From: Gammaproteobacteria bacterium | Lineage (GTDB): Bacteria; Pseudomonadota; Gammaproteobacteria; Arenicellales; Poriferihabitantaceae | Length of the DNA: 42,089 nucleotides | Reading direction: 5' to 3' | Assembly: GCA_011088265.1 (NCBI GenBank) | Contig: JAALKB010000008.1 | Location: 1 to 42,089, forward strand | Part shown: in pieces, positions 5,965-18,127 of the stretch | Layout of the letters: every line of letters begins with the position of its first letter | Position numbering within the stretch: the first letter of the stretch is position 1 | Position numbers and translations under genes: made by a program | Notes under the pieces: model-generated | Told to the model about the DNA's origin: nothing | The model's input: only the letters and a program-made list of their open reading frames with translations | The model's database searches: none

Positions 5965-6900
<936 letters not shown>

Positions 6901-7135
6901 TTACCCAAAAGTACTGTTAATGAGTGAGAAATATGCGAAATAATTGCTTCCCTGCACCGTTACTGGTTAAGTGCCAAAGCTGTCAGTTTGGAAGTTTTCC
7001 CGCCGTATCGTCTGTTAGAATGATTTATTAGAGAGAAGAAGATCTTCTATTATCTCGAATACGACTTTATCGTGTGGTATGGGATAACAAAACACGACTT
7101 AAGTATTCCAACTATCCTCTTTATGGTATATTCCG

Positions 7136-7167
7136 AAAATCATATAAAGATATCTTTATATGATTTT
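7136..7167. promoter_or_regulatory. Perfect 32-bp palindrome upstream of metK, likely methyl-cycle operator
   Basis: Positions 7136-7151 are the exact reverse complement of 7152-7167. The core reads ATAAAGATATCTTTAT. It lies about 290 bases before the metK start and next to AT-rich promoter-like sequence (TATATT at 7127-7132). From memory, ArsR-family SahR-type regulators of the S-adenosylhomocysteine cycle in Proteobacteria bind palindromes of this form upstream of metK/ahcY genes. That match is recalled, not searched. An AT-rich hairpin followed by T residues could also end transcription, but its weak stem makes an operator likelier. Confidence 0.7.
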
Positions 7168-7455: not shown

Positions 7456-8622
7456 ATGTCAAAGTCGTTTTTATTTACGTCTGAATCTGTGTCAGAGGGG
7501 CATCCTGATAAGGTTGCGGATCAGATTTCCGACGCTGTTCTGGATGCACTTCTAAGCCAGGATCCCAAATCCCGGGTTGCCTGCGAGACCCTGGTTAATA
7601 CGGGCATGGCAGTGATTTCGGGTGAAATAACCACTAATGCGGTTGTTGATTTTCCTGAAGTAGTGCGAAATACGATTCAGGAAATTGGATATAACTCCTC
7701 AGACATGGGATTTGATTCCCAGAGCTGTGCAGTGGTTGTGTCATTGGACAAACAATCTGTGGACATTGCCCAGGGTGTTAACGAGGGGGAAGGCCTGGAC
7801 CTGGATCAGGGCGCTGGCGATCAGGGTTTAATGTTCGGTTATGCCTGTAACGAAACGGATGTATTGATGCCCTTTCCCATTACTTATGCCCATCTTTTGG
7901 TAAAGAAGCAGGCAGAGGTGCGAAAATCCGGCCAACTCGGATGGTTACGCCCGGACGCAAAATCCCAGGTAACGGTGCGTTATGAAGGAAATAAGCCCAC
8001 ATTCGTTGACACCGTGGTTCTTTCTACTCAACACGACGATGACATATCTCACAATGATCTGTCAGAAGCGGTTATCGAAGAGATAATAAAACCGGTTTTA
8101 CCTGCACACATGATTTCATCAGAAACCCGTTTTCTGGTTAACCCCACGGGTCGATTCGTCATCGGTGGTCCAGTGGGTGATTGCGGCCTCACAGGTCGAA
8201 AAATTATTGTAGACACCTATGGTGGATCTGCTCACCACGGTGGAGGGGCGTTCTCTGGAAAAGACCCGTCCAAGGTGGACCGTTCAGCAGCTTATGCCAC
8301 TCGCTATGTGGCCAAGAATGTTGTTGCAGCGGGTTTGGCGGATAAGTGCGAGGTACAGGTTGCTTATGCCATCGGTGTGGCTGAACCGGTTTCAATCATG
8401 GTTGAAACCTTTGGTACTGGAAAAGTCTCCGATGAGCAGATCGAGAAATTGATCAGAGCGCACTTTGATCTACGCCCCAAGGCTATCGTCAGTGGATTGG
8501 ATTTGTTACGACCCATTTATCGAAACTCGGCAGCCTATGGCCACTTTGGTAGTACTGAAACAGAGTTTACCTGGGAAATCACGGATAAAGCAGACGCCTT
8601 GAAAGCTGACGCCGGTCTTTAA
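7456..8622 (+). CDS. metK: S-adenosylmethionine synthase
   Basis: 388 residues from the ATG at 7456, preceded by GGAGG at 7441-7445. An in-frame TTG at 7432 would give a longer product but lacks a ribosome-binding site. The enzyme makes S-adenosylmethionine from methionine and ATP. Visible motifs are [13 protein letters not shown] (about residues 9-21, ATP-binding His and metal ligand), the hexapeptide GAGDQG near 118 and [19 protein letters not shown] near 265 (phosphate-binding loop). It is followed after 37 bases by ahcY, so synthesis of the methyl donor and removal of the by-product are in one operon. The long leader and the upstream palindrome suggest control by methyl-cycle metabolites. 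Confidence 0.97.
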
Positions 8623-8659: not shown

Positions 8660-10078
8660 ATGTCAACTCAAACTGTTGAAGAATTGCTGCCTGACTATCA
8701 CGTTGCCGATATGGAACTCGCTGAGTGGGGCCATAAAGAAATACGAATAGCAGAAACCGAGATGCCTGGTTTGGTATCTGTTCGTGGAAAATATGCCGAA
8801 GAGCAGCCTTTAAAAGGAACTCGTATCGCCGGTTCGTTACATATGACGATTCAAACGGCTGTTCTGATTGATTCGCTTGTCGCATTGGGTGCTGAGGTAA
8901 GATGGGCATCCTGCAATATTTTTTCCACCCAGGATCACGCAGCGGCGGCCATCGCAGATAAAGGTATTCCGGTATTTGCCTTCAAAGGCGAATCATTGGA
9001 TGAATACTGGGCCTTTACGCACCGAATTATGGAATGGCCAAATAACTCTGGCCCTAACATGATTCTGGACGACGGTGGTGATGCAACGATGTTACTAATT
9101 TTGGGCAGCAAAGCTGAAAAAGACATTAGTGTTCTGGATAATCCGGGTAGCGAAGAGGAAGTGGCGCTTTTTAAATCGATTAAAGCACGACTGCAAAATG
9201 ACAAAACCTGGTATAGCACCCGATTAGCAGAAGTGCAGGGTGTGACCGAAGAAACCACGACGGGTGTTCATCGTTTATACCAAATGGCTGCATCAGGAGA
9301 ATTGCCATTTCCTGCTATTAACGTTAATGATTCAGTTACGAAGTCAAAATTCGATAATCTATACGGTTGCCGAGAATCATTGGTTGATGGCATCAAGCGC
9401 GCCACGGACGTGATGATTGCGGGAAAAATAGCCTTGGTACTCGGGTACGGTGATGTAGGTAAAGGCTGCGCTCAGTCACTTCGTGGATTGGGTGCTACGG
9501 TTTGGGTCACAGAAATTGATCCAATCTGTGCCTTGCAGGCGGCGATGGAAGGTTTTCGGGTTGTCACCATGAATGAGGTTTGTGCGGATGTAGATATTTT
9601 TGTTACCGCGACCGGAAACTACGGTGTCATTACTCACGACCACATGGTTCAGATGAAAAATGAATCCATTGTCTGCAATGTCGGACACTTCGACAATGAA
9701 ATCGATGTTGCCGGCATGAAGCAGTATGAGTGGGAAAATATCAAACCCCAGGTCGACCAGATTATTCTTCCCAATGGTAACCGGGTAACTTTACTCGCCG
9801 AAGGTCGTTTGGTTAATCTCGGTTGCGCAACCGGCCATCCAAGCTTTGTTATGTCTAACAGCTTCACCAACCAGGTATTGGCTCAAATTGAGTTATGGAA
9901 AGACAGCGACAAGTACAACAACGAAGTATACGTACTACCTAAACATTTGGATGAAGAAGTTGCGCGATTACATCTCGACAAAATTGGAGCAAATCTCACC
10001 GAATTGAGTCAGGAACAGGCGGACTATATTAGTGTTCCTGTGAATGGTCCTTATAAGCCAGGACATTATCGCTATTAG
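8660..10078 (+). CDS. ahcY: Adenosylhomocysteinase
   Basis: 472 residues. It hydrolyses S-adenosylhomocysteine to adenosine and homocysteine, relieving product inhibition of methyltransferases. The N-terminal substrate domain starts [13 protein letters not shown]. The segment around residues 140-180 is the insertion found in long bacterial forms. The NAD-binding loop reads [13 protein letters not shown] (about 257-269). [10 protein letters not shown] and the C-terminal [11 protein letters not shown], where the Lys and Tyr reach into the partner subunit's NAD site, are intact. It is the second gene of the metK operon and is followed by a strong terminator. No metF is present downstream, unlike many related operons. 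Confidence 0.97.
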
Positions 10079-10543: not shown

Positions 10544-13203
10544 TTAGAAGCTAAGAGAAATATCCCGATGGACAGAAAGGCAGGAGGCGATATCTTCAGC
10601 ATATTCATCATTGAGTCGTTTTTGCAGCCTTAGACCAATATTCGACTTAATGGTTTGATTATATTCCCTCAGAGAAACCAGTATTGGGCTGGCTGTTTCT
10701 CTCCATTCCACTTCCTGGGCATATAGGTCAAGGGCTTCTTATAGAAATTCAACGAAGCTGTAACATCGGGGGAATTGCCTTTTAGCTTACGTCTTGCTTT
10801 CGATAATTTGGATTTAATGTGACTGACCCCGATGACATCGCTAAAGGTAGACTCCAATTCCTTGATTTTTACCATGGCCTGATCCGGTGGAAGCGATTCG
10901 ATAACCGTACCGATTTCGGATAAACCGAGCTTCAGCGTGGCAAGGGTTGCCCGGCTTTCAATCACATTGACGACCTCAATAATCGGTTCATAGGCAGTGT
11001 CCACATTTCTTCGATAGGCAATGCGTGCTTTATTGTCCTCGGACGCGAGATCGGTATAACCCTTGTTGGCGGATTCCCACTGAGCAGGAATGGCATCTTC
11101 AAGGGTCTTGATTTCCTCTTCCAGAGACGCAATAAGTCGCTCATAGGGGTCCAGTTCGGACTGAGTGGTTTCGTTCTTGCGAACCAACCGATCATATTTG
11201 ACTTTGGTTAACTCCAGCTCCGATTCAACCTTTTTTATATCCTTCTGAATTCGCCTCACCTGGTGATGAAGATCACGGTAACCTGGAATGTATTCATTTA
11301 GCTTTTGCTCTGCGACTCTGGCCTTTGCTACCAGGCTGAAAGTGTTGTCTGCCAGGTCAAAACTTTCCGAGAGTTTGTTGCGATATGCGTCCGGCAACAG
11401 TGACAGATCCATGTTTCTGGCCTGGGCAATACTGCTGCGGATCTGGGTTTCATTATGGATATAATCCTCGAATACCTGCTCCTCCATGCACATCTGCAAT
11501 CGTGGGTTAATAGGTGGAGGCGCTGTTTCAGACGTTAGAAAGGTTTTATTTGGCATGTAGTTCACCATGCCTGGGAAGAAACCCGTAATGACCAAACCGA
11601 ATAATTGTAATGCGATAAATGCTGCAGCTCCTTTATAGATATGTGTGGTTTTCACTTCAGGAGGAGCAACACCCCGAAGATAGAACAAGGCGAAACCAAA
11701 AGGAGGAGTAAGGAATGAGGTTTGGATATTCAGCCCAATCATGACGCCCAGCCAAACCGCAGTGATATTAGCTTGCGGATCAGCAAGAAGAATCGGTGCA
11801 ACGATGGGAACCACCACCACAGCGATCTCAATGAAGTCCAGAAAAAACCCCAAAAGAAAAATGACGATCATCACCACGATGAACTGGGTCCAAAATCAGC
11901 CAGGCAGGCCAGTAAGAAACTCTTTTACCAACTCTTCGCCACCGAATGCGCGAAAAGCAGAAGTTAGCATTGCTCCACCAATAAGTATGATAAAAACCAT
12001 GGAGGTCGTTTTCGCGGTATCTATCATTACTTCGTGGAGAGTATTGTCAATGCGGTAGGCCCTTAAGGCGCTCCAGCCAATGGCAAATATCAGAACGGAA
12101 ACCGTCATTACCGCCAGAAAAATCCCAATAAGGTCACTATTGTTCTTAATGTTCTTGATATTGAGATCAAAGATATTGAGCAGCGCAATGATGGCTATGG
12201 TCGACAACACGGCGAGAATTGCCGGTGTATAGGCGTGTTTCTTGCCTTCCATTAAGCGATAGCCCCCCATGATTAGTGCGCCAATTGCACCAATGGCTCC
12301 TGCCTGATTAACCGTTGCAACCCCAAGAATAATGGAACCCAGTACTACAAAAATCAGAGTCAGGGGAGGAACCAGGGAAAGGAGAATTTTGATAACAAAG
12401 CTCCGATCATACTTACCGTCATAGGGGACTGGCGGAGCAGACTCTGGTTTGATAAGTGCGGAGATAAGTATATAGGCCATGTAAAGGCCAACCAGTACGA
12501 GTCCCGGAATCAACGCGCCCATGAACATGTCTCCCGCACTCGCTGAAGTGATATCTAGCTGGGATGGCATGGAAAATTCCCCGGTAGCTTCTTTGTAATC
12601 TGCCTTTCGCAGGGTGCTGGCCTGATCGGCGGCATTGGAAAGTTGATCCGCCAGGATAATGAGGACGATGGACGGAGGAATGATCTGCCCAAGGGTCCCG
12701 GAAGCGCAGATGGTGCCGGTAGCAAGGGGTTTGGAGTAGTTATTGCGTAACATCGCGGGAAGAGAAATCAGTCCCATGGCAATTACTGTGGCGCCCACAA
12801 TGCCCGTGGTGGCAGCCAGTAGTGCACCAACAAAAACAACAGAAATGCCCAATCCACCGGGAACAGGGCCGAAAAGCTGAGCCATGGCAACCAGTAAATC
12901 CTCGGCGATTCGTGATCTCTGAAGCATAATTCCCATAAAAATAAATAGGGGAATGGCGATTAGGGTATCTCTTTCAACGTCCCAGTAAAGACTCCGAAAA
13001 TTTGTCACCCCTGCACTTAACCATTGAACGGGGCCATCCTGGGCGAAATAGGCGCCCACATCGCCTTCCACCACGTATCCAGAAAACGCAGCCAGAGCAA
13101 TGGAAATAATGGCTGAACCCGGTAAGGCAAAGGCCACGGGGAATCCCGAGGTCAATGCTACGATCATCAAAAGTACAAGAATTGTTAGAAAGACAAGTTC
13201 CAT
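10544..13203 (-). pseudogene. dctM: TRAP transporter large permease DctM with coiled-coil tail, interrupted by a stop and a frameshift
   Basis: The first ~435 residues and the next ~80 form a TRAP large permease with many membrane helices, the channel subunit that moves organic acids with sodium. Codon 436 is TGA (11896-11898). Translation would continue in the same frame as FWTQFIVVMIVIFLLGFFLD, a typical family sequence. Relatives usually have Gly-Gly here (LPGG), so one base change from GGA to TGA explains it. After the last helix comes a ~270-residue charged tail, mostly predicted coiled coil (for example KKVESELELTKVKYDRLVRK). At 10672-10677 the frame shifts: one missing base ends the tail early (QYWFL-stop), while the other frame continues LREYNQTIKSNIGLRLQKRL to a stop at 10544. 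Restored length is about 886 residues. It lies 33 bases after dctQ. Confidence 0.85.
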
Positions 13204-14622: not shown

Positions 14623-15673
14623 CTAGTCAGATATTTTTGCCCAGGCACCAACATTGGTTCTTGAGTTAACAAAACTTTCGTGGATACGTCTTGCCATGTC
14701 GCTGTGCTCAACAACTTCAGCATAGACTTCGTCAGCAGCTTCACCGAAAGAGTCATAGATGTCGTCGTTGAACTTACGGAGCTGGACGCCTTGCTCATTA
14801 ATCAGTTTAGCGAGCGCTTCGCCATTTTTCGCATTATATTCAGCCATCATGACGTCATTTTCCATGGAGGCTGCTGCTTCTACAATCAACTGATCGGACT
14901 TTGAAAGACCATCCCAGAAGGCTTTGTTGATTCCACATGCCAGCATCGCCGCAGGCTCATGCATACCTGGGTAGTAGTAGTATTTGGCTGCTTCATAGAA
15001 TTTCATGAAACTATCGTTCCATGGACCAACCCACTCCGTAGCATCGATGGCGCCTGAAATCAGATTTTCATAAATCTGAGACTGGCAGTGAGACAGGTGA
15101 CGCGCCCAGTTTGGCCAGAACATCACCGCCAAGGCCTGGCATACGCATTTTCAAACCTTTAAAGTCATCAGCTGAATTCATTTCTTTACGGAACCAGCCA
15201 CCCATTTGAACACCAGTGTTACCGCACATCATGTTCTTTAAACCAGCTTCCGCAGCCAGCTCGTCCCACAATTCCTGTCCACCGCCAAAGCGGATCCAGG
15301 CATTGATTTCGGTATAGGTCATACCGAAAGGAACTGCGGTGAAATACGCCCAACCTGGGTGTTTGCCTTTCCAGTAGTAATCAGCTGCGTGGTACATCTG
15401 AGCGTTCCCTGACGCCACTTCGTCAAAGGAGTCAAATGGCTTAACCCTTTCACCGCCAGCATAATATTCAACATGGAATCGGCCATCACTCATATCTGCA
15501 AGGCGCTGGGCAAATCGTTGGGCACCTGTACCCAGCCCAGGGAAGTCCCGTGGCCAAGTGGAAACGATATTAATTTCGATACGTTCTTGAGTAATTGCGG
15601 GTGCAGACAGAGTAGCTGCTCCTGCGGCACCGGCTGCAATGGCGCCAGTCTTTAAAAGTTCACGACGTTTCAT
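14623..15673 (-). pseudogene. dctP: TakP-type TRAP substrate-binding protein, frameshifted
   Basis: The N-terminus MKRRELLKTGAIAAGAAGAA is a Tat-type signal (two Arg followed by Glu-Leu-Leu), as in TakP-like proteins exported folded. The mature part is a DctP-family receptor: ISTWPRD-like start, then NTGVQMGGWFRKE and LKMRMPGLGG, where the Arg binds the substrate carboxylate. After SPVSLP (codon ending at 15083) the frame breaks; the rest, IYENLISGAIDATEWVGPWN through GAWAKISD, lies in another frame. Four bases (15079-15082) separate the two halves. A two-base deletion (family usually has Gly-Gly here) or one extra base explains it. Restored length is about 350 residues. Relatives bind 2-oxo acids such as pyruvate; the substrate here is not known. 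Confidence 0.88.
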
Positions 15674-16996: not shown

Positions 16997-18127
16997 CTAG
17001 ATTTTGTATATTGATTTATAGGCATGCACATAGCCCATGCCGTGTTCATCAGGGTTTGCAAGAACCTGTTGACGGTAGGTGTTGTAATAATCCTCAATGA
17101 TTTTCTTGCGTTCCTGAAGTAGTCGAGACTCATCAAGTCCAGCCAAAAAGATACTCTCATTCCAGCTTCGAATAGTGGGAATGAGTCCATCAGCGAATTT
17201 TTCTACGTCCTTATGTTGTTTGAACTCTTCGGCAAATGGACAAGGCACAACCCGGGTTTCAATGTTCTCCATTCGTAAGCCTGCCTGATAACATTCGCTA
17301 GAACTGGAGGTGAGTGGATCGCTGAACTCCTCAACAGTATTATAGTATTGCGGTAGCGTCATATTCTCGTATTCAGCGGTGGTAATAATTCCTTCGCCAA
17401 GAAAATTCTGCCAGTTTCTATTGAAGTTATCAAACATGTTTACGCCACCGGTATTACCGAGATATTGCCCTTTTTCATCCCGGCAAAAATTTATCAGAAC
17501 CAGCCGGCCACCACTCACCAATTCTCTGGCACGACATGCCAAAATGGTTTCCCAGTCTTTTTTAGCCTAGCTTGAAAATGCTCTTAGTTCTTCTCCGCTA
17601 GCACCAACCATATGGACATGATCTGAGATATTCATTGGCTTACTGCTTAACCAGTGCATTGCTGTGGCGGAAAAACCAAGATGCAACGTGTTATTGGGAA
17701 CAGCCTGGAGATAAAAAGAAGAACCAGAAAAAAGAGGATAAACTTCATCGATCCGCTTTAAGTAACTGTCAAAATCCGTGAGATCATGAACAATACTTAC
17801 CAGCGCATTGAAATCGTTCCGTGGCTGGTCCGAATACACTACGCTGATGCTAGCCTCATTTGCGTGCTTTCTCACCTGGTTAAGAGCGGCTTCTATCATG
17901 GACAGCGAAGTGCCACCATCTGCGCAACCCATATCGCTCATTCTGAATTCTCTAAGATTGGGGTTGAGTTTCAGGGCGTCAATGGCATCAATCACCAGCG
18001 GAGTTCCATGGTCAATGACATCTTTGGCTCCCTTGGTTGCCAATGAATAAAGCCCTCCACCAGACATGGTGATATCGTCTGCCTGAGCATTTGAGCCAGA
18101 TAATTGGATTTGGTTGCTATGGGTCAT
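16997..18127 (-). pseudogene. SABATH-type carboxyl methyltransferase with internal amber codon
   Basis: The two halves together make 376 residues, the usual length of SAM-dependent carboxyl methyltransferases (Methyltransf_7 / SABATH). These methylate carboxyl groups of small acids and are best known from plants. Motifs in order: MSGGGLYSLATKGAKDVID, the SAM-binding MGCADGGTSL (near 67), YSDQPRNDFNALV, GSSFYLQAVPNNTLHLGFSA and MHWLSSKP, matching the plant SFYxxLFPxxSLHxxHSS...LHWLS block. Codon 187 is TAG (17567-17569); the same frame then continues AKKDWETILACRARELVSGG. Relatives have Gln here as far as I recall, so a CAG to TAG change explains it. It may be dead, read through, or a sequence error. 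No nearby gene names its substrate; the PhzF-like gene follows. Confidence 0.83.

Follow-up and report, generated by a model that had tools for sequence, protein, structure and literature searches.

The window analyzed here is a 42,089-bp stretch of DNA that represents contig C155 of a 4.17-Mb genome (317 contigs; 97% complete) of a gammaproteobacterium of the order Arenicellales. It carries argB and, divergently transcribed from it, metK and ahcY (Table 1); all three names are backed by NCBIfam equivalogs, which are curated models. metK and ahcY are separated by 37 bp and are predicted to belong to the same operon. An earlier note on this DNA had described a perfect 32-bp palindrome ahead of metK-ahcY, with 16-bp arms matching throughout, and a palindrome scan confirmed this feature in the argB-metK intergenic region. 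It reads AAAATCATATAAAGAT to the left of its center and ATCTTTATATGATTTT to the right, with no mismatch and no spacer, and is the only palindrome in the window with arms of at least 8 bp. Its center lies 305 bp from the ATG of metK.

Table 1. Features of the argB/metK-ahcY region, in window coordinates
Feature	Position	Strand	Basis
argB, divergent neighbor	5965..6858	-	TIGR00761
Possible extended -10 element, TGGTATATT	7124..7132	+	Sequence reading; the sister genome has TGCTATATT in this place
Full operator region (predicted), perfect 32-bp palindrome	7136..7167	.	Palindrome scan and sister-genome footprint
Predicted 20-bp SahR operator core, ATATAAAGATATCTTTATAT	7142..7161	.	Exact recurrence in the same genome, conservation in relatives, and like sites outside the order
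metK, methionine adenosyltransferase; predicted regulated gene	7456..8622	+	TIGR01034, 614 bits (cutoff, 309)
ahcY, adenosylhomocysteinase; predicted same operon as metK	8660..10078	+	TIGR00936, 612 bits (cutoff, 498)

The earlier note had read the palindrome as an operator for SahR, an ArsR-type regulator, a reading under which the motif should recur in the genome. The 26-mer of the palindrome was unique within 3 mismatches. The 20-bp core was present in three exact copies, one before metK-ahcY and two at contig ends of a bhmT-like locus, and no further matches were found within 3 mismatches (0 with the reversed control). The two additional copies lie at the end of contig C251 (L012:1485-1536) and at the start of C229 (L011:1-52), within the same perfect 52-bp palindrome, and most simply represent one locus that was broken by the assembler at the palindrome. 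The 52-bp palindrome is either real, with the assembly break falling there, or an assembly artifact. The center of this second operator is 22 bp before the ATG of a 349-aa gene whose product matches NF005718, betaine-homocysteine S-methyltransferase (463 bits; cutoff, 338). The repeat expected from the earlier reading is therefore found at a methionine cycle gene. A looser half-site pattern, ATAAASNNNNSTTTAT, gave six matches in the genome (two with the reversed control); three of the six lay outside the known sites, scored -10.0 to -1.3, and were taken as chance.

No operator-bearing loci beyond these two were found in this genome. The earlier note had pointed to metH, metE, metF, and sahR as other places where the motif might stand. 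In this genome the motif was found before the bhmT-like gene, and the search gave no site by L069 (the weak metF-like gene), L195 (the metE-like fragment), L193 and L194 (the other two genes of the PF02574 homocysteine methyltransferase family), or sahR. No canonical metF was seen in this genome. The sole metF-like gene found (L069:1527-2429, on contig C228) encodes a 300-aa distant MTHFR relative with 37.7 bits in Pfam and a score far below the NCBIfam cutoffs. No full-length MetH with PF02574 was seen, the three PF02574 matches of the genome lying in frames of 330 to 364 aa, and the only match to MetE was fragmentary, in a 220-aa frame.

Five matches to PF01022 (ArsR family) were found in the genome, the best of which is a 314-aa SahR candidate at C120:7138-8082 on the minus strand, adjoining guaB. 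An ArsR-family regulator, as the earlier reading presupposed, is thus present and has the architecture of SahR: an N-terminal ArsR winged helix (HTH_5) and a C-terminal class I methyltransferase domain. The best operator score in its contig (L007) was 0.1. Autoregulation of sahR is usual but not universal, and the lack of an operator beside this sahR is therefore no bar to its membership in a SahR regulon. Inspection of 18 aligned SahR relatives revealed invariant residues both in the winged helix (S40-Q41-P42-R43 and S45-R46-H47) and in the methyltransferase domain (D154, GTGTGR at 156 to 161, and D177). The latter would be consistent with retention of a SAM/SAH pocket, in which SAH would be bound. 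A PDB search with the protein returned separate ArsR or methyltransferase relatives only. Long SahR proteins of the same architecture are documented; the sahR of Ensifer aridi, for example, is 1,023 bp (PMC8877191).

In order to follow the motif through related organisms, 40 genomes, including this one, were compared, with the motif counted within two mismatches. The motif was present in 17 of the 40 and a SahR homologue in 19; both occurred together in 16 genomes and neither in 20, leaving one genome with the motif only and three with SahR only. The association was significant by genome (Fisher P = 3e-7) and by 22 genera (P = 3e-5), values that shared ancestry still inflates. In G017 (88% complete), the single genome with the motif only, loosening the threshold still gave no full-length SahR. 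The three with SahR only (G006, G010, and G026) were scored with a matrix of 26 columns, for which 30 of the 32 motif sites, all from the window's order, served as the training set; a G017 site without an assigned gene (L056) and the second contig end (L012) were left out of the training. Clear sites before sahR were found in G006 and G010 (27.4 and 23.6), and only a weak site was found in G026 (13.7, versus a maximum of 15.5 in 842 kb of shuffled sequence). A site adjacent to sahR also was absent in G001, G002, G007, G021, G027, and G037.

The genes that follow the motif are consistent with a methionine cycle regulon. Of the 32 matches, 30 precede metK (10), sahR itself (8), metF (6), bhmT-like genes (4), or serB-like genes (2), the metK sites standing ahead of metK-ahcY; the remaining two are the other half of the bhmT palindrome described above and the G017 site. 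Two of the six metF sites stand between folD and metF. Six loci have metF after sahR; two of these loci, L043 and L185, are outside the 32 matches. The relatives' MetF proteins score slightly below the curated cutoffs and the SerB-like protein clearly below. Both serB-like genes preceded by the operator belong to relatives of one genus (L052:2001-2020 in G037 and L055:2001-2020 in G027), and serB is not among the SahR targets named in the available text of PMC4239095. The operator is 51 to 186 bp from metK in eight of the nine relatives' sites; in the sister genome the distance is 319 bp, compared with 305 bp here, and the site in the window is unusually far from metK. argB is probably not a target, because metK operators persist in G027, G034, and G037, in which argB was unmatched in the locus read. 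This conservation before the same genes across genomes, together with the frequency expected from base composition for arms of at least 16 bp (about 1e-5 per window and 1e-3 per 4.17-Mb genome), makes it extremely improbable that the palindrome arose by chance or is a structural feature, such as one of replication or recombination, with no regulatory role, even though inverted duplication can yield AT-rich palindromes and the second site of this genome lies within the 52-bp palindrome at the contig ends.

The matrix also was applied outside the order, to regions upstream of sahR taken from the best 80 of 589 confirmed sahR-type matches. Two of the 80 (L104 and L105) correspond to G021 and G027 of the window's order, have no site before sahR, and were dropped. 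The remaining 78 loci are mostly alphaproteobacterial (Azospirillum, Mesorhizobium, Brucella, and Rhizobium), with a few other labels. All 78 regions contained a site scoring at least 12.6, 77 of them at least 17, and 8 contained the exact 20-mer of the window. With 200 column-permuted control matrices, a mean of 1.1 of the 78 regions reached a score of at least 12; one permuted matrix, presumably near-equal to the original, reached 63.

These results bear on whether the palindrome could be the operator of another regulator of this pathway, namely, MetJ, MetR, or one of the four further ArsR-family proteins matched in the genome. We regard this as very unlikely. The motif tracks SahR across the relatives, and it stands immediately ahead of sahR at 8 of the 32 motif matches and in every one of the 78 loci drawn from the best 80. 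MetJ had 0 matches in the genome (97% complete), with a positive E. coli control, and the MetR consensus given in PMC4239095, ATGAA-N5-TTCAT, is not contained in the palindrome.

Comparison with the sister genome (G001), where argB and metK are laid out in the same way, revealed a footprint at the palindrome. Identity between the two upstream regions is 56%, and their longest unbroken match, 28 bp (ATCATATAAAGATATCTTTATATGATTT), falls at the palindrome; both genomes also keep TGNTATATT just upstream of it. Where the earlier note spoke of the 32-bp palindrome as fitting an operator, the functional core is predicted to be the 20 bp rather than the 32 bp. The possible extended -10 element (Table 1) could place the start of transcription at about 7139 to 7140, inside the palindrome, where a bound repressor would block initiation. 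A scan for consensus sigma-70 promoters found no site here. In a few relatives (e.g., metK of G027 and sahR of G013 and G014), TTGAC occurs a few bases before the operator, and with this placement the operator would overlap the spacer and -10 region.

A palindrome in a metK leader of about 300 nt might instead act as RNA, as a hairpin, a terminator or attenuator, or part of a riboswitch. For the sequence in the window, folding does give a stem of 15 bp (-14.3 kcal/mol; z, -6), with a U-rich stretch after it. However, the metK sites of three relatives fold only weakly (-5.5 to -6.6 kcal/mol), and changes in the relatives, such as C against C at -3/+3, break the RNA pairs while keeping the DNA half-sites. 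A terminator would have no obvious use between divergent genes, and the distance of the operator from the gene it precedes (sahR, metF, or another) varies. The Rfam scan gave no match at the gathering score in the window; in the metK leader at E values of up to 1, it gave only a chance microRNA family and no SAM or SAH riboswitch model. An RNA role consequently appears most improbable.

Taken as a whole, the palindrome is very probably a SahR operator before metK-ahcY, with repression and release by SAH (S-adenosylhomocysteine) adopted from the published family. The earlier note's ArsR-type SahR reading is supported by the SahR-type regulator, the recurrence of the motif at the bhmT-like gene, and the sites in relatives; the co-occurrence, the target genes, and the footprint, likewise read from sequence, agree with it. 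By analogy with the family, we infer that a SahR dimer would bind the half-sites ATATAAAG and CTTTATAT and block the start of metK-ahcY transcription. Accumulating SAH would bind the methyltransferase-like domain and SahR would leave the DNA, so that metK-ahcY and the bhmT-like gene with its like operator would be derepressed, SAH would be cleared, and methionine and SAM would be regenerated. SAH is the established effector of Desulfovibrio SahR, as cited in PMC8877191 and PMC4239095.

In order to place the regulator, a SahR tree was built from 46 rows, including 22 of the 80 loci; neither the alignment nor the tree included the partial SahR of G005. The tree is unrooted and leaves open 14 of the 43 inner branches. 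The SahR candidate groups with the alphaproteobacterial loci (Rhizobium, Brucella, and Mesorhizobium records), and a branch with 100/100 support parts it and the alphaproteobacterial proteins from four other gammaproteobacterial homologues. No site of this kind precedes these four. G099, a member of the class that matched the SahR alignment, lacks a site. In a sample of 143 gammaproteobacterial genomes taken across the class, 7, including this one, had a SahR match at an E value of 1e-30. The alpha- and deltaproteobacterial SahR motifs are described as slightly different and the gammaproteobacterial motif as delta-like (PMC4239095). What we see here looks like an alphaproteobacterial-type SahR and operator in a gammaproteobacterium. 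Transfer from alphaproteobacteria is possible, on a tree that is too open to show it.

The closest known system is the SahR regulon of alphaproteobacteria, which likewise combines a 20-bp palindromic operator with a long ArsR-methyltransferase protein (PMC4239095 and PMC8877191). The targets described for it are metK, ahcY, bhmT, metF, and sahR; in the present genome the sites precede metK-ahcY and the bhmT-like gene, and in relatives the others. The operator belongs to the sequence type that precedes sahR in records from Rhizobium, Brucella, Mesorhizobium, and Azospirillum. Unlike in that system, the host is a gammaproteobacterium, sahR stands beside guaB without an operator, and only two operator loci were found. 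The SahR of Desulfovibrio and of Pseudomonas-type gammaproteobacteria belongs, by published description, to the same family and has the same targets. The four gammaproteobacterial homologues in our tree, possibly Pseudomonas-like, form a separate clade (100/100). SamR of Xanthomonadales also has an ArsR-type palindromic operator before metK. Its published motif, however, is 24 bp with ATC-10 nt-GAT, common to gammaproteobacterial SahR (PMC4239095), and the core found here lacks this element; moreover, the SamR regulon contains metK alone among SAM cycle genes, whereas here ahcY follows metK.

We lean slightly toward a broader reading, in which the Arenicellales use an alphaproteobacterial-type SahR circuit, both protein and operator, possibly acquired by transfer, with lineage-specific targets (the serB-like gene and perhaps folD in places where it and metF are divergent) and, for the present genome, with a perfect 52-bp palindrome that encloses an operator immediately ahead of the bhmT-like gene. 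A literature search for Arenicellales together with SahR found none. The mechanism is a known one and not new. For a gammaproteobacterial order that has been little studied, the analysis would supply the methyl cycle with a regulator, an operator, and a small regulon, with an alphaproteobacterial-type operator kept nearly letter for letter across classes, and the perfect 16-bp arms could offer a strong, ready operator for SAH-sensing reporter constructs in laboratory strains.

Further inspection of the window revealed three frame irregularities, all on the minus strand. The adjacent frames 17567-18127 and 16997-17542 look like one gene split by a frame break (16997-18127), which we take to encode a SABATH-like small-molecule carboxyl methyltransferase. 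At 14623-15673, two frames overlap in what is presumably one gene for a TRAP transporter solute-binding protein, which points to a frame break or to an error in the assembly. Lastly, the TRAP large-permease gene (dctM) at 10669-13203 appears split: in frame 10669-11877, residues 1 to 109 match the C-terminal part of dctM and are followed by a coiled-coil-like tail.
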